Source: Chlorobaculum limnaeum (GTDB lineage Bacteria > Bacteroidota > Chlorobiia > Chlorobiales > Chlorobiaceae). Taken from it: 64,000 nucleotides of DNA. The stretch is taken from assembly GCF_001747405.1 (NCBI RefSeq), contig NZ_CP017305.1:824001-888000 (forward strand), given 5' to 3'. The notes below the pieces were generated by a model. The model searched no databases. It was not told the DNA's origin and worked only from the letters and a program-made list of their open reading frames with translations. The stretch's first letter is position 1. Every line of letters starts with the position of its first letter. A program made the position numbers and the translations under genes. Shown piece by piece: positions 6,423 to 51,341 of this stretch.

Positions 6423-7526
6423 CTACCTCTTCATCTCAAACCACCCTTTCGCATCGTCAATTGCCTGAAGCACCGCTTCGTTCGCGATGTCCTGTTCGTG
6501 CAGGAAGGCGTGGCCGATGCGGTCGAGGAGGACGAAGCGCAATTGCTTGTCGATCTTCTTTTTGTCGGAGAGCATACTCTCCACCAGCTCGTCGCGGTCG
6601 AGCGAGAGGAAGCGCTTCTCGACGAGGCCGCGCGGGAAGCGGAAGTGGGCGAGCAGTTCGAGGCCTTCATGCAGCTCCGTTTCGGCGAGGAAGCCCAGCC
6701 GGTGCGACAGGAAGAGGGCGCAGACCATGCCGATGGTGACCGCCTCGCCGTGGCGCAGGTTGCGGTATTCGGCCATCTTTTCGAGGCCGTGGGCGAAGGT
6801 GTGGCCGAAGTTGAGCGTCGCTCGCAGGCCGCTGGTTTCGCGGAAATCCTTTTCCACCACGTCGGCCTTGATGAAGGCGCTGCGGCTGACCGCCTTGGAG
6901 ACCCACGGCTCTTCGAGGCGCACGATCTCGCTCCAGTGCGCGGCGAGCAGGTCGAAGAAGTCGCGGTCGGCGATGAAGCCGTATTTAACTACTTCACTCA
7001 GGCCGCCGTAAATCTCGCGCGAGGGGAGCGTTCGGAGGTAGGCCGGGTCGATCAGCACCAGCTCTGGCATGTGGAAGAAGCCGATGAGGTTTTTGCCGAG
7101 CGGGTGGTTGATGGCCACCTTGCCGCCGATGGAGCTGTCGGTCATGGCGAGCAGCGTCGTCGGGAGCTGCACCACCGGAATACCGCGGTAGTAGCTCGCC
7201 GCGATGTAGCCGCCGAGGTCGCCCACCACGCCACCGCCCGCGCAGACGAGGTTCCAGCTCCGGTCAACGTCGGCCTCGATCATCTGTCCATACAACTTCC
7301 ACGCCGTCGAGACGCTTTTGGAGGTCTCTCGCGCGGGCACGACCAGCTCGACGGTGCGGAACCCCTGCCGGTGCATCGACTCGATGATGGTGTCGCCAAA
7401 GAGCGTGCGGGTGTTTTCGTCGAAGAGCAGCACGGTTTTTTTGCCGAGTCCCCTCGTGGCGCAGAGTTCACCAATCGAATCGATAACCGGCGTTCTGACA
7501 ATGATATGGCTGGCGGGAGTCTGCAT
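6423..7526 (-). CDS. aroB: 3-dehydroquinate synthase
   Basis: A 367-aa enzyme of the shikimate pathway that cyclises DAHP to 3-dehydroquinate using NAD and a divalent metal. The NAD-binding core VCAGGGVVGDLGGYIAASYYRG and the substrate/metal motifs TTLLAMTDSSIGGKVAINHP, LNFGHTFAHGLE and RHGEAVTIG are all present, giving Glu and two His metal ligands. It starts 3 bp after the aroK stop on the same strand, so the two form an aroK-aroB operon for successive parts of the aromatic pathway. Confidence 0.97.
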   Translation of the reverse strand: MQTPASHIIVRTPVIDSIGELCATRGLGKKTVLLFDENTRTLFGDTIIESMHRQGFRTVELVVPARETSKSVSTAWKLYGQMIEADVDRSWNLVCAGGGVVGDLGGYIAASYYRGIPVVQLPTTLLAMTDSSIGGKVAINHPLGKNLIGFFHMPELVLIDPAYLRTLPSREIYGGLSEVVKYGFIADRDFFDLLAAHWSEIVRLEEPWVSKAVSRSAFIKADVVEKDFRETSGLRATLNFGHTFAHGLEKMAEYRNLRHGEAVTIGMVCALFLSHRLGFLAETELHEGLELLAHFRFPRGLVEKRFLSLDRDELVESMLSDKKKIDKQLRFVLLDRIGHAFLHEQDIANEAVLQAIDDAKGWFEMKR

Positions 7527-7529
7527 GTC

Positions 7530-8105
7530 TTACTTGTCGTTAGTGTTGTTTTTCGATGCGCGGCGGATGTGCCGCTCGATTTTGCGCGTCAGCTCTTCGA
7601 CGCTCGCGCCGATCTTTTTGGTGTCGGTGGAGAGCACCAGATCAGCCTTCAGGTATCGCGGCTCCCGTTTTTTCAGAAGCTCCGCGATGCGCTGCTGAAT
7701 CTCCTCCCGCGTCAGCTTCCGTCCGTCCTCGCCTTTCAGCAAGGGCCGGTCGGTCTTGTGCTGGAGCCTGAGCGTGAGGATTTCCGGACTCGACTTGAGG
7801 TAGATCAGGGTGCCGTGCGTCTGGATCAGCTCGAAGCAGCGGTCGTTTTCGAGCACGCCGCCGCCGAGCGAAACCACCATCCTCTCCTGCTGGCCAATCT
7901 TTTCGAGCGTTCGGAGTTCGAGCGCCCTGAAGGCGGCCTCGCCATCCTCGGTGAAGATCCGGTTGATGCTCTTGCCGGCGGCAATCTCAATCTCGCGGTC
8001 GAGGTCGATGAACTCGAAGCCGAGCGAGTTTGCCAGCAACGGGCCGATGGTCGATTTGCCGGAACCGCTGAAGCCGGTCAGAAATATGAGTGAGTGGTGT
8101 TTCAT
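7530..8105 (-). CDS. aroK: Shikimate kinase
   Basis: A 191-aa P-loop kinase that phosphorylates shikimate at the 3-hydroxyl. It has the Walker A motif GFSGSGKST at residues 11-19, the shikimate-binding DLDREIE (DxD), the second binding motif with SLGGGVLEN, and the lid arginine region TDRPLLKG. I start it at ATG 8105 (MKHHSLIFLTGFSG), which places the P-loop at the family-typical distance; an in-frame upstream ATG would add 48 unsupported residues. It is followed directly by aroB. Confidence 0.96.
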   Translation of the reverse strand: MKHHSLIFLTGFSGSGKSTIGPLLANSLGFEFIDLDREIEIAAGKSINRIFTEDGEAAFRALELRTLEKIGQQERMVVSLGGGVLENDRCFELIQTHGTLIYLKSSPEILTLRLQHKTDRPLLKGEDGRKLTREEIQQRIAELLKKREPRYLKADLVLSTDTKKIGASVEELTRKIERHIRRASKNNTNDK

Positions 8106-8254
8106 CCTGTTATTCGGCGGGCAATGGCGGCTCGCTGTTGATTTGCGGCCAATATACGAAAAAAATGAGCGATAACCGGTGCGATGCGATTGTTTCAGCC
8201 CGCGAAAGATGATAGCTTTGCGGCAGCGAATTCGATCATTGGAAATCATCGTTT

Positions 8255-8962
8255 ATGAAAAGTCTGTATATCATCAAGGCCGGGAGCACTTTTGCCACCG
8301 AGGTGGAGCGGCTGGGGGATTTCGAGGAGTGGGTGCGGCGCGGGTTGGGCGACATGCCATGCCCGGTCGCGGTGGTGAACGCCGAGGCGGGCGAGGCGCT
8401 GCCCGCGCCGGAGCGGTGCGCGGGGGTGGTCGTCACCGGTTCGCACGCGATGGTGACCGACAACCTGCCGTGGAGCGTGGCCATCGAGCGGTGGATCGGG
8501 GAGCTGATCGCCGTCCGCGCGCCATTCCTCGGCATCTGCTACGGCCACCAGCTTCTCGGTCGCGCCGCCGGTGGCGAGGTGGGCTACCATCCGCAGGGCC
8601 GTGAGGCGGGCACGGTCGCCATCGAACTGACGCCCGAGGGCCAGCGTGACGCGCTCTTCGACGGAATCCCGCCTCGGTTCGCCGTCCATGCGACTCACTC
8701 GCAGAGCGTCTTGCGGCTGCCCGACGGCGCTCTGCGCCTGGCCTGCAACAGCTTCGAACCGAACCACGCTTTCCGCGTTGGCGAGTCGGCCTGGGGCGTG
8801 CAGTTTCATCCCGAGTATACGCGGGAGATCATGGCGGCCTATCTGCAAGAGGGGAGAGCCGGTTCCGGAGCGTCGCGGAAGGGGAGTGGTGTGTTGGGCG
8901 AGACGCCGCTGGCCGGGCGGGTGCTTACAAATTTTGCCAGCTTTGTTTCCCGGACTCTCTGA
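8255..8962 (+). CDS. Class I glutamine amidotransferase domain protein (GMP-synthase-like, stand-alone)
   Basis: A 235-aa stand-alone triad glutamine amidotransferase. The nucleophile elbow FLGICYGHQLLGRA puts the catalytic Cys near residue 91, and AWGVQFHPEYTREIM supplies the His-Glu pair near residue 175. VTGSHAMVTD matches the GSP-type oxyanion strand of GuaA-like proteins. No synthetase partner domain or neighbour exists, so the acceptor substrate is unknown; proteins of this type are usually annotated as GMP synthase-like. The last 38 bp overlap the 3' end of the convergent recD2 gene. Confidence 0.88.
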   Translation: MKSLYIIKAGSTFATEVERLGDFEEWVRRGLGDMPCPVAVVNAEAGEALPAPERCAGVVVTGSHAMVTDNLPWSVAIERWIGELIAVRAPFLGICYGHQLLGRAAGGEVGYHPQGREAGTVAIELTPEGQRDALFDGIPPRFAVHATHSQSVLRLPDGALRLACNSFEPNHAFRVGESAWGVQFHPEYTREIMAAYLQEGRAGSGASRKGSGVLGETPLAGRVLTNFASFVSRTL

Positions 8963-36238: not shown

Positions 36239-36258
36239 TTAGATTATATTTTGTCTAA
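36239..36258. promoter_or_regulatory. TTAGA/TCTAA inverted repeat in an AT-rich promoter region
   Basis: TTAGA and TCTAA flank a 10-bp spacer in an AT-rich stretch about 165 bp ahead of the riboswitch-like leader of the first TonB receptor. A related TGTCTAAT string occurs at about 46412-46419 upstream of exbB. It could be a site for an iron-type repressor or promoter DNA; the assignment is weak. Confidence 0.3.
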
Positions 36259-36423
36259 ATAAAATTAACGGGTCTGATACATGTTTTCATGAGTGGGCGG
36301 AGTTCTGACATAGAGCCTCATATCCTTAGCGAGATTATGAGCTGCATTGCCGAGATAGCCTATGGGGAGGTGGTGGTTACCATCCACGACACCAGGGTCG
36401 TTCAGGTGGAGAGGCGTGAGAAG

Positions 36424-36540
36424 CGAAGGTTCGATGCAGTTCCGGCTGGAAAATGCGCTGTTCGCGAAAACCGTGATCGTGACCGGTTGTAAGGGCGATG
36501 ATCGGGGGCGTTGAACCGCAAGTCTGAAAGCCACTGATGG
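36424..36540 (+). ncRNA. Cobalamin-riboswitch-like leader
   Basis: The 563-bp gap between the chlorosome protein and the TonB receptor holds no gene, but its middle resembles a cobalamin aptamer. GGTTCGATGC...GGAAAA at 36429-36453 is followed by a GCG-loop-CGCG hairpin, then GTGACCGGTTGTAA (36480-36492), like the CCGCaACxGTxA core, and AAGTCTGAAAGCC (36520-36532), which matches the first 13 positions of the B12 box (AGYCMGgAgaCC) only in part. The receptor starts 74 bp later. The match is by eye and imperfect; a covariance search is needed. Confidence 0.5.
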
Positions 36541-36613
36541 TTACACGGGTCGCGGCAGTGTGGCGACTTGATGTTCTGTGGGCGTTTTATTATTTAAAAT
36601 AAATCTAAATAGC

Positions 36614-38533
36614 ATGGGGTTTACGTACAGGCGTCTGCCGGGGAGAAAAGAGGTTGGCGTTTTTGCGCTTCTGCTTTCTGCCGGAGTTCCCGTTCAGGCT
36701 GAAGAGAAAAGTTCGTTCACGCTCGATGAAACGGTCGTGACGGCCACGCTTAGCGAAATGGAGGTCGGCAAGGTTTCTGCGGCTGTCGAAGTGATTACCG
36801 CGCGGGAGATTGCTGAAATGGGCGCGGAAACCCTGCATCAGATTCTTGCCGAGGCGCAGAGCGTTACGCTCGAACCGACCAGCGGGCGCCAGAGTACCGT
36901 GCGGCTGAGAGGGCTTGGTAGCGGCTCGGTGCTGGTGCTGCTGGATGGCGTACGGCTGCCGTCAGGGTTTCAGGACAAGGTCGATCTGGTCGAAATTCCC
37001 GCAGGTCTCATCGAGCGTATCGAGATCGTCCGCGGGCCGGGTTCGGCGCTTTACGGCAGCGATGCCATTGGTGGCGTCATCAATGTCATAACGAAAAAGC
37101 CTTCAGGGAAGCCGGCGGCGTGGTTTGGCTCCCGATACGGCCAGAGCCGCCATGGTCAGGCCGAAGAGGCTGTGTTCGATGCCGGGGCCAGTGGTACGGC
37201 CGGCTCGCTCGGCTATGTCGTTGCAGGTTCGTTTTCTGACAAGGGGCGCTTCGATTTCGATGCTTCAGATATGCAGACCGATGGTGACGACATGCGTGTG
37301 GCGTCGGGAGCAGCGAGCCTTCTCTGGCAGGCTGGCGAGCGGACGACTGTCAGCCTTGGCGCGATCTATGCGGAGGTCGAGCGCGAAGGGCTTCGCGCGA
37401 AGAACAAAAGGGAGAATGACTGGAACAACGGTTCCGACCGGTTTACCGGTAATGTCGAGCTGCGGCATGAGCTTGCCGATGATTCCTCCCTGCTCTTCCG
37501 CCTTTCCCGTTCGGAGTATGACTGGGGGTTGAAGCTGACGCCGAAGGATGGCTCGGCTTCGGAGCAGCATGAGGTAAAGCAGGTTTCGACGCAGTACGAT
37601 GGACGCTGGCGCCTCGGCGTTGCCGGTGGCCATGTCGTGACTACCGGCGTGGAGTACCGCGCCGAGGAGCGCGTCGATGATACCGTCGAGAGCGATGCCC
37701 AGAACTTCGCCGTGTTCGTTCAGGACGAAATTTCGGTCACCGAAAAGCTTCAGGCGATTGTCGGTCTGCGTTATGACGAACACTCCGGTTTCGGCTCGGT
37801 GCTGAGTCCGCGAATCAACCTTGCCTGGCGGCTGAACGAGCGGCTGCGCCTGCGGGCCGCTTATGGCGAAGGGTTCCGCGCGCCGACGGCGTTTGAGTTG
37901 TACTCCGGTTCACCCTACACCGTCAACCGGATTCTGTTGCCGAATCCGGAGCTCGAACCGCAACAATCCAGAAGTTGGGAGCTTGGCGCAGATTATGCGA
38001 ACGGAGGGTTTTCCCTTGGTCTGACGGCCTTCAGGAACGACCTCAGGGATATGATTGCCGAGGTCTATACAGGGAAGGATCAGGGAAAGATACGGATCAA
38101 CAGGATGGAGAATATTTCAGATGCCATGACGCAGGGATTCGAGCTGTCCGCTTCGTGGAGGCTTGGCGGTGGATTCGAGCTGTCCGACGAGTTCACGCTG
38201 CTCGACAGCGAGGACAAAGCGAGCGGAGAGGAGCTGCTTCATGTGCCGGATATGGCCAACGTGCTGCAACTTGCCTGGCGCGGTAAAGCGGCGGGTATGA
38301 CCGCGAAGCTCCGGCTGGTCACGACCGGGAGCCGGTCGATTGGCGGCGGAACCAGAAGCACGGGCTACTCAATGGTCAATCTCTATGCGTCGAAGGCGTT
38401 GACCTCCAGTGTCACCCTCTATGCGGGTGCGGACAATCTGTTCGATACAAAGGTGGAAAGCGCTTATGGCAATGTGTACGGGCCGGGCAGTTCCGGTACG
38501 CTCTATTATGGCGGTATCGGACTGAAGATCTGA
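36614..38533 (+). CDS. TonB-dependent outer-membrane receptor (BtuB/CirA-like)
   Basis: A 639-aa outer-membrane receptor. After a signal peptide (to about VPVQA), the TonB box region [12 protein letters not shown] leads to the plug domain ([37 protein letters not shown]) and the 22-strand barrel, ending in an aromatic-terminal strand (YYGGIGLKI). BtuB-like features and the cobalamin-riboswitch-like leader suggest a corrinoid ligand, but haem or siderophore is possible. It is followed 15 bp later by a cytochrome c gene. I start at ATG 36614; the longer in-frame extension adds nothing typical. Confidence 0.9.
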
Positions 38534-38551
38534 AAACGGCATGGAGGTATG

Positions 38552-38977
38552 ATGAAACGGCAAACAGTTTTTCTCGTGGTGGTTCTCTTGTTCTTTTCTA
38601 TCCCGGTGGTCGCTCCGTTTGGCGTTGCCCGAGGGGGGGCTCCCCAGGGCGTTCCGGGCGGAGCGGGGATAGATGGCGAGGCGGTTTACAGGAGCCATTG
38701 CTTGGTCTGTCACTCGCTTGCTCCGCCGCCGAAAGCCGCGCCGCCGATCAAGGGGCTGGCGAAGCACTATCGCGAGGCATTCGCGAGCAGGGAAGCGGGC
38801 GTGGCCTATATGAAAGCTTTCATGAAAAAGCCAGATGCCTCGAAAGCGATTTGCCACAAGGAGGCGATCGAGCGATTTGGGCTGATGCCCGCGATGACTC
38901 TTCCGGATGACGAATTGCAGGCAGTCGCGGCATGGATCTGGGATCAGTTCGATCCGGCGATGACCGGCGGACATTGA
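38552..38977 (+). CDS. Small exported c-type cytochrome
   Basis: A 141-aa class I cytochrome c with a signal peptide (first about 28 residues, VVLLFFSIPVV), one haem site CLVCH near residue 49, and a distal Met candidate in LMPAMTLPDDE near residue 113. It sits 15 bp after the TonB receptor and has GGAGG at 38543-38547. A soluble periplasmic cytochrome next to a receptor suggests a redox step on the imported compound or simply electron transfer. Two ATG codons in tandem precede it; I choose the second. Confidence 0.88.
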   Translation: MKRQTVFLVVVLLFFSIPVVAPFGVARGGAPQGVPGGAGIDGEAVYRSHCLVCHSLAPPPKAAPPIKGLAKHYREAFASREAGVAYMKAFMKKPDASKAICHKEAIERFGLMPAMTLPDDELQAVAAWIWDQFDPAMTGGH

Positions 38978-39430: not shown

Positions 39431-41257
39431 ATGTGCAACATACGAATCATCCGCAAGAGAAGCTGTGGCGTGCTCATGTTGCTTGCGGCCGTGGGCGCGG
39501 CCATCGAGGCGCGGGCGGAGATGCAAGCGTCGGAGCTCGACAAGATCGTCGTCAGCGCTACCAAAACCCCCCACACACTTGGCGATGTGCCGGTCGATGC
39601 GGAGGTCATTACGCGGGAAGAGCTGCTGCAACGGAACGTCCAGACAGCCCAGCAGGCGCTCGAACAGACGACCGGGCTGTACATTGGCAAAAATGCCAGC
39701 GGCTGGGGCAGCAAGGGTACGGTCGGCATGTACGGACTGGTCGCGAAATACAGTCTCGTGCTGGTCGATGGGCAGCGGCTGCTGGGTGGCCATCAGAACG
39801 CCATCGATTTGCAGCAGATTTCCGTCGAGATGATCGAGAGGATCGAAATCCTCAAGGGCCCTTCCTCGGCGCTCTACGGCAGTGATGCCGTCGGTGGCGT
39901 GGTCAACATCATTACCCGCAAAGGCGCTGACAAGCTGGAGTTTTCAGGATCGCTGGCGATGGGGTCGCGCGGAACGGCGATTGGCTCGATCTCCGGCGGA
40001 GCGGGCAGCGAAAAGCTGAAAACCCGGTTGAACTACACATACCGCGAGTCCGACGGTGTCAACAAACATGCCGACAGCTATGACGAGCACATCCTTCAGG
40101 GCACGATGTCACTGCGTCTTGCCGACAAGGCCGAACTCACCCTCAACCCTTACTATTCGTTTCAGGATATGCCTGATCAACAGACAACGCAGGAGCGCTA
40201 CGGAGTTCATGCGATGCTCGACTGGAAGCCGGACGATGTTTCATCGCTCAAGCTCCGGGGATCGCTGTTCGACTTCAGCTACAAGACCCAAACGGACGAT
40301 ACCGTGCTCGACAACTACGAACTCGAACTGCTCTATTCGCGCCTGCTGCTGGACAGACATCTGGTGACCGGCGGTTACGGGTTCTGGAACGAACGGCGGA
40401 ACTATGTGCCCCGGCCCGCTCAGAACAGCAAGATAGAACAGACCCTGAACAGCTTTTATCTGCAAGACGAGATCGATCTTTCGCCCGTCGTACTGGTGCT
40501 CGGCGCTCGTGTCGATTCTCACGAGCGGTGGGGAGACGAAATCAATCCGAAAGCGAGCGTGATGTACAAGGCCAGCGATGCACTCAAATTCAGGGTTTCC
40601 GCTGGCCGGGCATTCAAGGCTCCAACCCTTTTGAGTCTTTACGATGAGTGGATGATGGGTTCGATCACGGTGCATCCGAATCCCGACCTGAAGCCTGAGA
40701 AATCGGTGGGCTACCAGGCGGGGGTCGAATATGCTTTCAGCCGCGACATCGTCACGAAGGCGACCTGGTTCCGGAACGATCTCGACGATATGATCAAAAG
40801 CACAGTATCGAGACGCGGCGGGGCGATGCACATGGATTACGAGAACATCAACAAGGCGATGACGCAGGGGGTCGAGCTGAATCTCGATGCGCGGTTCAGC
40901 AAGGCCGTTTCTGCGAAGCTCGGCTATACCTGGCTCGATACCGAGGACAAGAACAGCGGCAAGAAGCTGACCTACAGCCCGTCAGGCAAGTTCTTTTCCG
41001 GCCTGGATTTCAGGATCGCGCCAGCTGGTCTTTTGCTCGGTCTGGAGGCCAGTTACACCGGCGAGCGTTATACCGATGCGGCCAATACGGAAAAGCTTGG
41101 CAGCTTCTGGCTCTGCAATGCGTCACTGACAAAAAAGTTTACCGAAAATGCCGAGCTGTTTGTCCGGATCGATAACCTGTTCGGAGAAAAGAATATCACT
41201 GATGAATACGACCTCGATGGAACGGAGTTTCTCGCGGGGATGAGGGTGAAGCTCTGA
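39431..41257 (+). CDS. TonB-dependent outer-membrane receptor (BtuB-like), second
   Basis: A 608-aa receptor with a signal peptide ([16 protein letters not shown]), a TonB box region [16 protein letters not shown], a plug with [16 protein letters not shown] and a barrel ending in LAGMRVKL. It resembles the receptor at 36614 but is clearly a separate, diverged gene; each has its own cobalamin-riboswitch-like leader. The likely cargo is a corrinoid, cobinamide or related tetrapyrrole, energised by the ExbB-ExbD-TonB set 4 kb away. A strong terminator follows. Confidence 0.92.
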
Positions 41258-42022: not shown

Positions 42023-42066
42023 AAAAGCCTCCGACATTTCTCCTTTGTGTCGGGGGCTTTTTTTAT
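42023..42066. terminator. Terminator between flavodoxin and the cbiX operon end
   Basis: A 13-bp nearly perfect stem (AAAGCCTCCGACA with TGTCGGGGGCTTT) and a T-run, placed between convergent flavodoxin and cbiX-1. Strong in the plus direction; the A-run on the other side may let it work both ways. Confidence 0.85.
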
Positions 42067-43016
42067 TTGCGCAGTTGTTTCTTGCGGATGCCGTCGGCAA
42101 GCGTTCCGGCGGTGCTGATGATCCAGGCTTCGAGATCGGGATCGGGGAGGATCGCGTCTGGCCGGTAGCGAACGTGCTTGCCGGTTTCCACCACTGACGC
42201 GACACCCCTGCCGATGATGTCGATCTGGAAGCGCTCGCTGAAAGAGACCAGCAGCGGAATGACGATGGCGCGATCATGCTGCTTCAGGATCCTTCCGATG
42301 GCCGCCGAGGTGCTGTCGGGGCTGTAGTGGGCGACGTGGCCGCACCAGGCGGTCGTAAAGCCTGCGAATCCGCCCTCCGCGCACGCTTTCCGGCCCGTCT
42401 GTTCAAACGTCCGCTCCCATGTTTCCTGGAATGGCTCCGATCCGTAGCCGACAAGCACGAGCCCCTCCCGTGACGGATCGTCCGAGAGCGTTCCGGCTCG
42501 TCTCAGCACGTTGGATGCAAGCAGGCCGGAGAAATCGAGGGGGGCGGCCAAGTGGGTTCGGGCGGCGGGTATGTAGCGCTCGATCCCTTCGAGCCGCATC
42601 TGTTCAAGGGTGGCCGGATTCTCCTTTTTGCCGATGATGGTCGGAATGTCGTCGAACACATGCGCACCGGTCGAGAGGAAAAGCGGGATGACGACGATGT
42701 CCGAATAGCCGTTGCGGTCGAGCGCTTTGAGCGCCGTCGAAATCGATGGCTCGGCGTGCTCCATGAAGGCGGTCGAAAGGGTGTCGATGCCGTCGATGGC
42801 GCGGATTCTGGGCGCGACGCGCCGTTCGAGTTCGAGCAGGTTTCGCTTCCATCCGGATGAGCGCGAGCCGTGATTGATGAGCAGCACGGCGATTTTCTGC
42901 CTGTTCGCGGGTGAATCGCCGGAGGGTTCGGCTCGTCGCTCACTCTCGGTACAGGCCGTGAGGGCGACGAGCAGGAGCGAAAGAAGGTATCGCACCGGAT
43001 GGGTCGGGAGGCGCAT
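42063..43016 (-). CDS. CbiX-like sirohydrochlorin chelatase, predicted lipoprotein (copy 1)
   Basis: A 317-aa class II chelatase. After a lipoprotein signal (YLLSLLLVALTAC, lipobox LTAC with Cys near residue 21), two halves follow: LINHGSRSSGWKRNL with the N-terminal metal-type His, IPLFLSTGAHVFDD, then WCGHVAHYSPDST and IPLLVSFSERFQIDIIG. CbiX/CbiK enzymes insert cobalt, iron or nickel into sirohydrochlorin-type tetrapyrroles, normally in the cytoplasm. A signal peptide points to an outward-facing, membrane-anchored chelatase or metal-binding protein, as with the periplasmic CbiK known in Desulfovibrio. It ends the minus-strand operon, 63 bp after the PepSY gene. Confidence 0.88.
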   Translation of the reverse strand: MRLPTHPVRYLLSLLLVALTACTESERRAEPSGDSPANRQKIAVLLINHGSRSSGWKRNLLELERRVAPRIRAIDGIDTLSTAFMEHAEPSISTALKALDRNGYSDIVVIPLFLSTGAHVFDDIPTIIGKKENPATLEQMRLEGIERYIPAARTHLAAPLDFSGLLASNVLRRAGTLSDDPSREGLVLVGYGSEPFQETWERTFEQTGRKACAEGGFAGFTTAWCGHVAHYSPDSTSAAIGRILKQHDRAIVIPLLVSFSERFQIDIIGRGVASVVETGKHVRYRPDAILPDPDLEAWIISTAGTLADGIRKKQLRK

Positions 43017-43079
43017 TGGCGTGATTCGGTTGTATGCCGGGCGGCGGCATGATTCGTGCACGGATTGTTGCGGTTTTAC

Positions 43080-43643
43080 CTACATCTGCTGCATCACCAG
43101 GGCAATGAGCGGCGGTAGCGCGCCAGCGGCGATGAGCCACTTGCCTCGCCCCGGCAGGCCGTTGCGTCCGCGAAGCATGAGTATGCCGGTTGCCGTGATG
43201 ACGATCAGCATGAGCGCGAAAAGGTCGGAGACCCATTTCCACCACTCCACGCTGTTGCGGTGCAGCACGTTGACCTGGTAAAAGAGCGGGCGTCGCGATA
43301 CCTGCTCGTAGATTCCTTTGCCGCTGCCGAGCTCGAGCAGCATGGTTGCGTTTTTGTAATAGATTTTCACCTGCCGGTCTGAGGGAAAGTCGTAAAGACG
43401 GAACGACTGCTCTCCGGCCAGAGCGCTGAAGCGTTCGATGCTGCTCGCGGTTATCTCGTTTTTCGCGTAACCGCGATCGAGGTTGATCTCTTTTTTGGTG
43501 ACGATGAAATCCGGGTTCCAGTCATCGACATGATTGAGCGCAATGCCGGAGAGGCTGTAGGCGATGATAAGCGCGGCAAAGAAGTAGCCGAGGTCGCGAT
43601 GCAGGATGTTGTTGATTCTCCTTGCGTTATCGAACGGTTTCAT
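43080..43643 (-). CDS. PepSY-associated membrane protein
   Basis: A 187-aa protein with an N-terminal membrane helix ([19 protein letters not shown]), a periplasmic stretch of about 90 residues, and two C-terminal helices ([33 protein letters not shown]). The [17 protein letters not shown] pattern is that of PepSY-TM proteins, several of which are ferric-chelate reductases or accompany TonB systems. Its position between two CbiX genes in the exb-ton operon suggests a reductase or membrane-anchoring role. It begins 11 bp after the cbiX-2 stop. No haem-type His pair can be proven by eye. Confidence 0.85.
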
Positions 43644-43654
43644 GGCGTGGGCGA

Positions 43655-44632
43655 TTATGGTCTGGTTTTGGCGTTCAGGGTTTCGATCTCTGTTTTCACG
43701 GCCTTGACGATCCACTGTTCGATAGCCGGATCCGGCAGCAGGGCGTCGGGCTTGTAGCTGACGCGCTCTTTTCCGCCATCAGCCTTTTCGATGCCCCCGC
43801 CGATGATCCGCACCTGGAAGTTCTCGTCGAAGGCCACCAGCACCGGAATCACGAGCGCCCGCTTTTTGCGTTTCAGAATTCTGTTGATCGCCGCGGTGGT
43901 CGAGTCCGGGCGGTAGCGGACGATATGGCCGCACCAGCCGTGCGTCAGGGCGTCGATGCCGGTTTCCTGCCGCACGGCTTGTCCGACTTTGACAAAGAGC
44001 TCGTTCCACTCTTTTTCGTACTCCTCGTCGCCGTAGCCGATCAGCACGATTCCCTCGTCGGCGGGATGTTTCGACAGCGCCCTTGCCCGGCGAACGACAT
44101 TTTGCCGCAAAGCGTCGCCGAAGTCGAGCAGCGGCGTCATGCGGATGGCCGCTTGCGGCTTGTAGCGCTCGATCTTTTCAAGCTTCAGGGTTTCCATCGA
44201 GCGCGGATCCTCCTTCTGGCCCATGATGGTGGGCAGGTCGTCGAAGGAGTGCGGGCTGACAGTCAGGAAGAGTGGCACGACGACGACGTCGGTGAAGCCT
44301 TCGCGGTCGAACTCCTTCAGGCGTGTGGCGATGGAGGGTTCGGTGTACTCCATGAAAGCGGTTCTGACTGCGGTAACGCTGCCGCTCGTAAGCATTGCAG
44401 GGGCGACCCGCTGTTCGAGGTCGAACAGGGCGTTGCGCCAGCTTTCGGATGGCGAGCCGTGGCTGACCAGCAGCACGGCGGTTTTTCGCGGGCCGCGCGG
44501 GTCGGTCGTTGCCGCCGGATTCTGTTTCCTGGAGCAACCGGCGAGAGCGGTAAAAAGCATCGCGACGAAAAGCAGCAGCCGGGCAGCCGACCCGCGGCCT
44601 GCCGCATGGAGCGTACGCAGTTGATTAGGCAT
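43655..44632 (-). CDS. CbiX-like sirohydrochlorin chelatase, predicted lipoprotein (copy 2)
   Basis: A 325-aa paralogue of the copy at 42063. The lipoprotein signal ends in LFTALAGC (lipobox LAGC), followed by [63 protein letters not shown] and [17 protein letters not shown]. Copy 1 and copy 2 share the motif order and clear residues but are well diverged, so this is an old duplication. Both would be tethered on the outer face of a membrane. The start ATG 44632 (MPNQLRTLH) is preferred to the in-frame 44695. It follows tonB by 78 bp in the same operon. Confidence 0.88.
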
Positions 44633-44710
44633 CGGTGTTTTCAGATGGTTGAATGGATTGATTTGACAGGGTCTGGATTGAACGATGTTGGTCATGATTC
44701 ATCTCGCCGG

Positions 44711-45340
44711 TCAGATGAGCTTGAAGAGCAGCGGAATGTTTACCGTGAGTCTGCCGAGGCCGAAACCGGTTGGCGGCGGAAACGGAGCGGCTTTCCGGAC
44801 AGCGGCGAGCGCAGCATTGTCGAGCGTGGAGAAGCCCGATGACTTGACGATGCTCGTCGAGATGACGGCCCCATCGCTTCCGATGACAACGTTCACGATT
44901 ACCGCGCCCTCCTGCTGGAGGCTGCGGGCGAACGGCGGATAGTGTTTTTTCGCCTCGATCCGGCTTCGCACGATCGACAAATAGTTGCCGGATTGGGAAG
45001 CAGGAATAGCCTGCGGCGTACCGGCGGAGGCGCTTTCCGCCGCAGGTTCCTGCCGGATGCATGGAGGAGGGGCATCCGGTGAGGTTGTTGACACGGTTGT
45101 CGGAACGGGTTTCTGCCACGCCGGTTTCATGGCTTGTTCCTTTCTGACTGGGTGCGGCATGGGCTTTGCGGTTTGCGTCGGCTTTTCGGGGCGCGCAACC
45201 GCCGAGGTCAGCGAAAGATCGATGCTGGGCGCGGTGGGCGCGGTTTCCGTGCGGGTCGTGAACACGAACGGAGTCAGTGCCGCCAGGTGCAACAGAATCG
45301 AGGCGCTGAATACCCCCTGCCGTATCCGTTGCGCGGTCAT
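44711..45340 (-). CDS. tonB: TonB energy-transducing protein
   Basis: A 209-aa protein with an N-terminal membrane anchor (VFSASILLHLAALTPFVF), a Pro/Lys/Thr-rich periplasmic spacer (residues about 40-110), and the C-terminal TonB domain of about 85 residues (IEAKKHYPPFARSLQQEGAV, then NAALAAVRKAAPFPPP). It couples the proton motive force, through ExbB-ExbD, to outer-membrane receptors. The start overlaps the exbD stop by 4 bp, so translation is coupled. It is short for a TonB but complete. Confidence 0.92.
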   Translation of the reverse strand: MTAQRIRQGVFSASILLHLAALTPFVFTTRTETAPTAPSIDLSLTSAVARPEKPTQTAKPMPHPVRKEQAMKPAWQKPVPTTVSTTSPDAPPPCIRQEPAAESASAGTPQAIPASQSGNYLSIVRSRIEAKKHYPPFARSLQQEGAVIVNVVIGSDGAVISTSIVKSSGFSTLDNAALAAVRKAAPFPPPTGFGLGRLTVNIPLLFKLI

Positions 45341-45744
45341 TCGGGTTTACGCTTGTCGGTCACGACGGAAATGCCGGTCGCTCCCGCCTGTTTGGCCTTA
45401 TCCATCACCTCGATGACCCTGCCGAAATCGACCGTTTTGTCCGAAAGCAGATGCACCGTCTTGTCGGCCCTGCCGTCGAGCAGCGATGCGATCTCCGGCT
45501 TGAATCGCTGGCTGGAAACCGGCTGGTTGTTCAGGTAGAGGTGGTTGTTGCCGTCGATGCCGATGGTGATCTCCGGCTCCTCGCTCGTCACAGCCGAGGC
45601 GGATTCCGGCAGCCTGACCGGCAGCACGGGCTTGGCGTAGATCGAGGTGAGCAGGAAAAAGATCAGCAACTGGAACACGATATCGATCATCGGAGTGAGA
45701 TCGATATAGCGCTTTTCCGGGAGGTTTTCACCGAAATCGATCAT
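45337..45744 (-). CDS. exbD: Biopolymer transport protein ExbD
   Basis: A 135-aa protein with a short cytoplasmic N-terminus, one membrane helix with the catalytic Asp (YIDLTPMIDIVFQLLIFFLL, Asp near residue 20), and a periplasmic domain. It is the proton-pathway partner of ExbB. ATG 45744 is chosen; an in-frame upstream region would run into exbB. The start overlaps the exbB stop by 4 bp (ATGA), and the stop overlaps tonB similarly. Confidence 0.95.
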   Translation of the reverse strand: MIDFGENLPEKRYIDLTPMIDIVFQLLIFFLLTSIYAKPVLPVRLPESASAVTSEEPEITIGIDGNNHLYLNNQPVSSQRFKPEIASLLDGRADKTVHLLSDKTVDFGRVIEVMDKAKQAGATGISVVTDKRKPE

Positions 45745-46346
45745 CGCCCGCCTCCAAGGTGCTTGAGGGCCTCCGTGCCGTAGTGTTTCATCTGCCACGC
45801 GAACGACTGGACCCGGTGTTCGAGAAAGTGGTGCGCCACCATTGCCGGAATGGCGATGGTCATTCCGGCGACCGTGGTGATCAGTGCCTCCCAGATGCCT
45901 CCCGCAAGCATCGACGGATCGATGCCGCCGGTCGAAGAGGAGATTTCCCGGAACGCATCGACCAGGCCGAGCACCGTGCCGAGCAGACCGAGCAGCGGGG
46001 CGATCCTGCCAACCAGCTCGATGACGTGCAGGTTCTGGTTGAGCCGTTTGAGTTCGGCTGAGCCTTTCAGGTTGATGACCTCCCCCAGTTGCTCTTTCGG
46101 TGCGCCTGCATGGCGAAGTCCCGCTTCGAGAATGGCGGCGACAGGGCCGGGAGTTGCCGCGGCGAGTTCGAGGGCGCGTTCGGTTTCACCTTTTTCGAGC
46201 AGATCGTGGATGGTTATGGCGCTTCCGGGCCGTCGTCCCGCAAGGAAAAAGAAGATGGTTCGTTCAAGAGCGAAGGCAAAAGCGATGATGGATGAGAGCA
46301 GCAGCGGGTACATGAGCGGCCCGCCTTTTACGAAAAGCTCCGTCAT
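45741..46346 (-). CDS. exbB: MotA/TolQ/ExbB proton-channel family protein (ExbB)
   Basis: A 201-aa three-helix proton-channel subunit. Helix 1 (LLLSSIIAFAFALERTIFF) sits near the N-terminus, and the paired helices (LVGRIAPLLGLLGTVLGLVD; ALITTVAGMTIAIPAMVAH) carry the conserved proline and threonine residues. It leads the operon exbB-exbD-tonB-cbiX-PepSY-cbiX. The AT-rich promoter region lies upstream at about 46400-46450. Confidence 0.95.
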   Translation of the reverse strand: MTELFVKGGPLMYPLLLSSIIAFAFALERTIFFFLAGRRPGSAITIHDLLEKGETERALELAAATPGPVAAILEAGLRHAGAPKEQLGEVINLKGSAELKRLNQNLHVIELVGRIAPLLGLLGTVLGLVDAFREISSSTGGIDPSMLAGGIWEALITTVAGMTIAIPAMVAHHFLEHRVQSFAWQMKHYGTEALKHLGGGR

Positions 46347-46673
46347 GGCAGTCGGTTGTATTGTAACAGTTTATGTTAGCCAATGCGTGCGCGCATGGCT
46401 GGTCGAGTACGTGTCTAATTTACATTTAAATTTATTTAAACAAAATAAAATTAAGCGCCTCATCCAGCATCTTTCTCGACCAGATTCGCTAGTGGCAGGC
46501 GTGAGAGTCATCCCGGCAGCTTGTCACGATCCGGTGCGCATTGCCGGTGAAGCCTTTCAAGGCGTTATATTGCATCCGGCTTCAGGCTGATTTCGCTCAT
46601 CCTTCACCGCAAAGGCGAGGGGTCAGTCGCTGACCGAAGGCGTTTCGCCGTATTGTGGTTCTGAACAGTTTTC
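46347..46673. other. Intergenic region with the probable exbB promoter
   Basis: About 330 bp between divergent exbB and the aminotransferase. The stretch 46405-46450 is very AT-rich and contains TTTAAATTTATTTAAA (an inverted TTTAAA pair around TTTA) and TGTCTAAT, likely the exbB promoter or a metal-responsive site. No gene, tRNA or hairpin array was found. Confidence 0.45.
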
Positions 46674-50923: not shown

Positions 50924-51341
50924 GCTGAAACCGAAGCTGTAAGCCGAATTCTGTACATCACCATCGAGTGGCGAAGTTGCAGTCATTTATCTGATGCGGC
51001 CTACCCGAAAACTCTGTCCGGAGTGAAACCCTGAACAGTTGGGCGGGCAACCCTTCTTTCCCGGAACCGGGAAAAAGCTTCCATATTTGGCCTTGCTTCG
51101 GGGAGGTTTTCATAGCGCAGGGCATTGCTGACCTGCCTGGTGGTCTCTTACACCCCCTTTTCACCCTTACTCCAGCCTGAGCCGGAGCGGTTCGCTTTCT
51201 GTTGCACTCTCTGTGACGGCCGACTTGCGCCGCCGCCCCCGGCCTTGAACGAGGTTCTCGACCGGCACCCTGCCCTGTGAAGTTCGGACTTTCCTCTGCG
51301 TGGCTTATGCCATGCAGCGACTGCACGCTTGCGGTTTCAGC
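50924..51341 (-). ncRNA. rnpB: RNase P RNA, bacterial type A
   Basis: The minus strand carries all hallmark segments of RNase P RNA: AGAGGAAAGTCCG near the 5' end, ACAGAAAGCGAACCGC, AGTAAGGGTGAAA, GTAAGAGACCACCAG, and ACAGAATTCGGCTTACAG near the 3' end. The ends pair perfectly as P1 (GCTGAAACCG at 51341-51332 with CGGTTTCAGC at 50933-50924), which sets the limits to within a few bases and gives about 418 nt. It sits between two plus/minus protein genes with no coding frame of its own. Confidence 0.95.

Follow-up and report, generated by a model that had tools for sequence, protein, structure and literature searches.

It is not settled how bacteria free heme-bound iron when oxygen is absent. 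The main extracytoplasmic candidate is HmuS, a CobN-like putative heme dechelatase that is encoded next to HmuY-HmuR in the hmu operons of Bacteroides and Porphyromonas, with the iron passing to FeoAB (PMC13227078, PMC10100974). FetB/IhtB of Porphyromonas gingivalis (PDB 9b86) is an exported lipoprotein that has the fold of class II chelatases; its gene accompanies that of a TonB-dependent receptor, and its presumed target is heme (PMC10913741, PMC13402209). The partners described for it in the iht operon are of ABC type (IhtC-E) and do not include PepSY. The class II chelatases SirB, CbiX-L and CfbA are cytoplasmic and biosynthetic. CbiK(P) of Desulfovibrio vulgaris (2xvx/2xvz) is an exported class II chelatase, for which, to our knowledge, neither a lipid anchor nor a TonB, HmuY or PepSY context has been described. 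Here we describe a gene cluster of Chlorobaculum limnaeum in which two predicted lipoproteins of the CbiX type, chelA and chelB, flank a PepSY membrane protein, pepSY, and follow exbB, exbD and tonB. The cluster lies in a window of 64,000 nucleotides (NZ_CP017305.1, positions 824,001 to 888,000) from a 2.80 Mb genome that consists of one contig; all coordinates below are those of the window. Gene context gives good support to a role in taking up an iron-tetrapyrrole, which is most likely heme. We put at about even chances the fuller reading, in which uptake of heme or another iron-tetrapyrrole is TonB-driven and iron-linked and a periplasmic CbiX-type chelatase removes the iron.

An earlier note on this DNA, made from the sequence alone, had described exbB-exbD-tonB followed by chelatase-PepSY-chelatase on one strand, with overlaps or short gaps. 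All six genes proved to be in place on the minus strand, in the order listed, separated by small overlaps or by gaps of at most ~80 bases:

45741..46346, minus strand: exbB, MotA/TolQ/ExbB proton channel (PF01618, 1.1e-31)
45337..45744, minus strand: exbD (PF02472, 6.1e-27), likely ATG 45744
44711..45340, minus strand: tonB (PF03544, 1.5e-17)
43655..44632, minus strand: chelA, lipoprotein CbiX-type chelatase-like protein (PF01903, 2.4e-12)
43080..43643, minus strand: pepSY, small membrane protein (PF16357 PepSY_TM_like_2, 9e-13)
42063..43016, minus strand: chelB, second lipoprotein CbiX-type protein (PF01903, 6.9e-17)

Homology to relatives indicates that the longest open reading frames (ORFs) of chelA, pepSY and chelB begin too early, and that the likely starts are ATG 44632 (MPNQ...), ATG 43643 and ATG 43016 (MRLP...YLLSLLLVALTAC), respectively. 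The exbD start, which overlaps exbB by 4 bases, was inferred from the N-terminus MIDFGE..., which is also the start in locus L020.

Both chelA and chelB match PF01903 (62.1 and 47.5 bits for the two proteins, against a Pfam cut-off of 22), as do 61 of 61 members of set A2, consistent with the earlier note's description of them as CbiX-like class II chelatases. They are the sole CbiX-family proteins found in this genome. The closest characterised protein by sequence is CfbA (E 1e-12). Against NCBIfam CfbA/CbiX-type equivalogs the best score was 64.9 bits, below the cut-off of 120; this score, together with the predicted lipobox signals on both proteins, argues against a sirohydrochlorin chelatase proper. 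Neither protein matched PF02514 (CobN/Mg-chelatase H-subunit). An AlphaFold2 model of chelA (predicted local distance difference test score, pLDDT, 91.7) has the two-lobe alpha/beta fold of class II chelatases. Its best structural match is SirB (Z 19.4, 240 residues, 3.5 A), with further matches to HemH/CpfC (Z ~16-17), CbiK (16.2), FetB (9b86; 15.9) and periplasmic CbiK(P) (15.8). These comparisons place chelA and chelB in the class II chelatase superfamily on the CbiX/SirB side, the side closest to them in both sequence and fold, with a metal chemistry that is predicted.

The putative active site is intact. In the numbering of the 346-residue chelA ORF, H79, E116 and H149 of the N-terminal lobe are invariant in 84 of 84 aligned relatives. 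H79 and H149 align with the CfbA HGS motif and second His, the catalytic His of the CfbA/CbiX/SirB side. The earlier note had left the survival of the metal His residues to structure prediction, and both are kept at the cleft in the predicted model. Four residues of the second lobe, Y221, C255, H257 (the last two within WCGH) and E291, are likewise invariant in the 84 relatives and lie just after strands in the chelA model, at positions that look equivalent to those of the H79/E116/H149 set; a lobe-to-lobe profile alignment for internal symmetry of chelA gave no match. The invariant WCGH, the predicted export and the link to PepSY and uptake genes set chelA apart from SirB, CbiX-L and CfbA, with which it shares the N-terminal position of the His pair seen in CbiX-L.

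By contrast, the His pair is in the C-terminal lobe of CbiK (PMC7689651), the family to which both FetB/IhtB and CbiK(P) belong. The earlier note had named periplasmic Desulfovibrio CbiK as the known precedent; it is indeed near, but it is not the sole one, because FetB/IhtB is also near (PMC10913741, PMC13402209). FetB was not found by sequence with the A2 profile. Against PF06180, chelA scored 16.6 bits (cut-off 26.2), with its N-terminal, His-bearing lobe aligned to positions 140-217 of 262, and chelB was not among the matches. Orthology to CbiK/IhtB was rejected on the PF06180 score and the lobe position of the His pair. Because the CbiK family, FetB included, carries its active His in the other lobe, class II chelatases would have been recruited to the envelope more than once.

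The earlier note had reported a lipobox on each chelatase, with the caution that re-mapped start codons might fall after it. After start correction, both proteins begin with charged residues, followed by a hydrophobic segment that ends in a lipobox, LAGC in chelA (Cys codon 44536-44534) and LTAC in chelB (Cys codon 42953-42951). The lipoboxes therefore sit inside short standard signal peptides, and the re-mapped starts do not remove them. Predicted export is conserved in relatives: a simple pattern, which missed several clear Cys cases, identified a lipobox in 57 of the parsed chelatases, and most of the others have a signal peptide, mostly without the lipobox Cys in Nitrospira and Verrucomicrobia. 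Only four parsed chelatases (L078, L088, L094 and L097) have no export signal. They start directly at the chelatase domain, form one clade in our tree and have no PepSY neighbour; the only other locus without PepSY is L095, whose contig ends just after the chelatase. Since the chelatases without a signal are those without PepSY (bar L095), export and PepSY go together. The four come from Chloroflexota and Ignavibacteriales bins, and in L088 the chelatase is followed by a likely FAD-dependent reductase (judged by eye).

We scanned 84,980 species genomes for exact peptide patterns, which makes the 154 relatives found a lower bound, and examined the best 80 loci. PepSY adjoins the chelatase in 77 of 82 distinct loci, each counted once, from Bacteroidota, Nitrospirota and other groups, so the arrangement is conserved well beyond this strain. 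Among the more distant hosts, such as Eisenbacteria, Dadabacteria and Verrucomicrobia, some are metagenome bins whose assignment may be wrong. The conserved core is one chelatase plus PepSY, not the pair of chelatases that the earlier note had taken as the distinguishing feature. The pair is special to Chlorobiaceae, where chelB forms a long-branched clade found only in that family and is a paralogue of chelA. Chelatases are present in only 2 of 21 genomes of the genus, and the tree, whose deep forks are weak, separates Chlorobiaceae chelA from the Chloroherpeton-type chelatase; transfer between lineages seems likely. Nitrospira loci carry an extra, distant chelatase-like protein after tonB (L057:2610-4298, 562 residues; L046:1150; L076:2236), and they keep a normal chelatase-PepSY pair beside it.

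The PepSY protein matches PF16357 at 49.1 bits (Pfam cut-off 27) and has three predicted helices, with the PepSY-like domain between the first two. H39, H62 and H152 (211-residue numbering) are near-invariant among relatives, and the positive-inside rule places the PepSY domain, H62 and H152 at the periplasmic face. A fold search returned weak matches only (best Z 5.8), and a sequence search for a solved structure matching pepSY found none. On the basis of these His, pepSY may be a heme-bearing electron carrier.

The neighbourhood of the chelatase-PepSY pair points to heme. Flanks of at least 5 kb on either side were available for 53 loci; among these, a TonB receptor lies within 5 kb in 34 and HmuY in 28. 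HmuY was confirmed by PF14064 (up to 1e-37) in Chloroherpeton-type genomes, where chel-pepSY is divergent from receptor-hmuY, and in Runella, a Weeksellaceae isolate and others. Because HmuY turned up in 132 of the 394 genomes sampled from the phylum, only its adjacency is informative, not its association at the level of genomes. In the literature searched, no paper makes such a connection between CbiX and either HmuY or lipoproteins.

The cluster shares an upstream sequence with a receptor operon in the same window:

46427..46446, minus strand: AT-rich motif ATTTTGTTTAAATAAATTTA, 81 bases before exbB
36248..36267, plus strand: second copy of the AT-rich motif, before the DUF2292/TonB receptor operon
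36289..36492, plus strand: DUF2292 protein, 67 residues (PF10055, 9.1e-14), between the motif and receptor 1
36614..38533, plus strand: TonB-dependent receptor 1, BtuB/heme-receptor-like (PF00593, PF07715)
38549..38977, plus strand: small cytochrome c (PF13442, 4.2e-9)
39431..41257, plus strand: TonB-dependent receptor 2; a homologue is convergent with chelB in L019, L020 and L022
41403..41906, plus strand: long-chain flavodoxin, FldA type (TIGR01752, above its cut-off)

Four Chlorobiaceae loci share a conserved region 5' of exbB, in which TTTGTYTAWWTAAWWWTA lies. The motif, also written as TTTGTCTAAATAAA, was derived from this region, and the exbB site is therefore no independent test of it; the independent tests are the second site and the absence of the motif across the genus. 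In the window's genome the exact motif has just two sites, one 5' of exbB and one 5' of the DUF2292/receptor operon, and a backward-read control pattern had no site. Both genus members with chelatases (G000 and G015) carry the motif twice, before exbB and before the receptor operon, with exact matches in G015 as in the window's genome. The remaining 19 genomes of the genus have no chelatases; 18 of them are without the motif and one has a single site. In Chloroherpeton-type genomes a close match to the motif separates the divergent chel-pepSY and receptor-hmuY operons; L016 and L017 have variants at this position, and in L020 variants precede exbB, a DtxR gene and chelA. The shared motif thus ties the chelatases, the TonB engine and the receptor into one regulon. 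A weaker copy (three mismatches) at 36585-36604 on the minus strand lies ~10 bases before the likely receptor 1 ATG at 36614. A scan for sigma-70 promoters gave matches at chance level.

A link to iron comes from neighbouring regulators. In the Chlorobiaceae locus L020 the chelatase cluster itself includes (7130-8478) a fusion of a DtxR-type iron repressor with FeoA, followed by DUF3793 (PF12672), and a DtxR-FeoA fusion repressor followed by DUF3793 lies near the cluster of L016 (2507-3798). In a search of 12 genomes, DUF3793 was above its cut-off in six, including Chloroherpeton-type carriers and Chlorobiaceae carriers outside the genus, and was not found in the window's genome; a literature search found no characterisation of DUF3793.

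We propose that receptors powered by ExbB-ExbD-TonB would bring the tetrapyrrole into the periplasm, where the lipid-anchored chelatase would bind it in the cleft between its lobes, with H79/E116/H149 on one side and Y221/C255/H257/E291 on the other, and would take out the iron by reverse chelation. The His of PepSY probably hold heme, and electrons that PepSY would pass across the inner membrane would reduce Fe(III) to Fe(II), which would enter the cytoplasm by FeoB. The window's genome encodes two FeoB proteins. FeoB is present in 10 of 12 carriers and HemH in 11 of 12, indicating that most are able to synthesise heme themselves and to take up Fe(II), and that the chelatase is not needed for heme synthesis. 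A search with PF02514 (CobN/HmuS-type) found no protein in seven of the eight non-phototrophic carriers tested. The window's genome has five PF02514 proteins: two CobN-type copies, which were examined and have none of the terminal membrane anchors described for HmuS (PMC13227078), and three that we take to be BchH-type. Because the chelatase site is intact, a FeoB route is available and HmuS is absent in most tested carriers, periplasmic iron removal would be the most economical function. We infer heme as the substrate in this species, the direction in which the chelatase works, a role of PepSY in electron transfer, and regulation by iron. The earlier note had proposed that outward-facing chelatases beside a TonB engine act on a tetrapyrrole in the periplasm; predicted export, fold, metal-site residues, TonB linkage and HmuY in relatives all favour this, and the sequence does not decide between insertion, removal and binding. 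We are somewhat more tentative about a general extension of iron removal, in which an exported CbiX-type chelatase and a His-bearing PepSY reductase would form a two-protein machine for reductive removal of heme iron in the periplasm, replacing the CobN-type HmuS in many environmental bacteria.

Several observations weigh against heme iron removal. Like Hmu-type heme-uptake loci, the cluster has TonB receptors (two in the window), but HmuY, present in many relatives, was not found in the window's genome or in other Chlorobiaceae carriers. Neither a receptor nor HmuY lies within 5 kb in 19 of the 53 well-flanked loci. The receptor models are uninformative on the substrate and do not tell heme, B12 and siderophores apart: all matches were below their cut-offs, and receptor 1 scored far below those of TIGR01779 and TIGR01785. 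DtxR, a candidate regulator for the motif, is present also in sister genomes without it. The pepSY model is modest (predicted template modelling score, pTM, 0.54) and matches no redox protein. For FetB, the nearest characterised exported lipoprotein chelatase, a review reports insertion of Mn and does not give removal of Fe as proven (PMC13402209).

The best-surviving alternative, which we nevertheless consider unlikely, is that the exported CbiX-type proteins are heme or porphyrin carriers that hand the tetrapyrrole to PepSY or an importer, with no metal removed. Chelatase-fold proteins can serve as tetrapyrrole binders, and the lipid anchor and HmuY neighbourhood fit a relay. By contrast, the full invariance of all seven cleft residues exceeds what a simple carrier would need, and the His pair is the catalytic pair of CbiX/CfbA-type enzymes (PMC7689651). 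Less probable again is forward chelation outside the cytoplasm, in which the protein would put Mn, Co, Zn or another metal into a metal-free porphyrin brought in from outside. Metal insertion with low metal specificity is known from class II chelatases (PMC7689651), the fold is shared with FetB, and FetB-dependent production of Mn-protoporphyrin in P. gingivalis is reported in a review (PMC13402209). Insertion fits poorly with carriers that mostly make heme by their own HemH, with an iron-uptake context of DtxR-type repressor and FeoB, and with a family on the CbiX/SirB side by sequence, not the CbiK/FetB side.

Handling of cobalamin or a cobalt-tetrapyrrole, with the chelatase acting on scavenged corrinoid precursors, is very improbable. 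CbiX is a cobaltochelatase family, and the best score of receptor 1, albeit far below cut-off, was to the B12 receptor model TIGR01779; however, no cobalamin riboswitch was found in the window, the same genome has one at its CobN/TonB-receptor locus (L144), and HmuY and DtxR neighbours indicate heme and iron. A role in siroheme or cobalamin biosynthesis was rejected on the predicted export, the absence of a cobalamin riboswitch from the window and the sub-cut-off equivalog scores. That these are ordinary cytoplasmic sirohydrochlorin chelatases with N-termini hydrophobic by chance is scarcely credible, since the four relatives that begin directly at the chelatase domain are a clade of their own without PepSY and nearly all other parsed chelatases have a leader, mostly with a lipobox.

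Two further features lie outside the cluster. A 2Fe-2S (Fer2) protein with a proline/leucine-rich tail (PF00111; 35266-36051, plus strand) presumably resembles chlorosome envelope iron-sulfur proteins. A class A RNase P RNA lies at 50924-51337 on the minus strand and also near the cluster in L020 and L022, which suggests conserved synteny.

FetB/IhtB already provides a case of an exported chelatase encoded in a TonB-linked operon for heme or iron, with periplasmic CbiK and HmuS as further precedents; what differs here is the family, the lobe that carries the His pair and the partnership with PepSY. Exported CbiX-type chelatases have a class II fold of ~290 residues, unrelated to the class I fold of HmuS (~1450 residues). 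It is this far smaller family that accompanies heme-uptake genes and a membrane partner here, and most of the lineages tested have no HmuS. Being small, soluble without its anchor and marked by clear invariant residues, this chelatase is directly testable. The occurrence of the chelatase-plus-PepSY pair by heme-scavenging genes in many unrelated bacteria suggests an uncharacterised extracytoplasmic route to heme iron.

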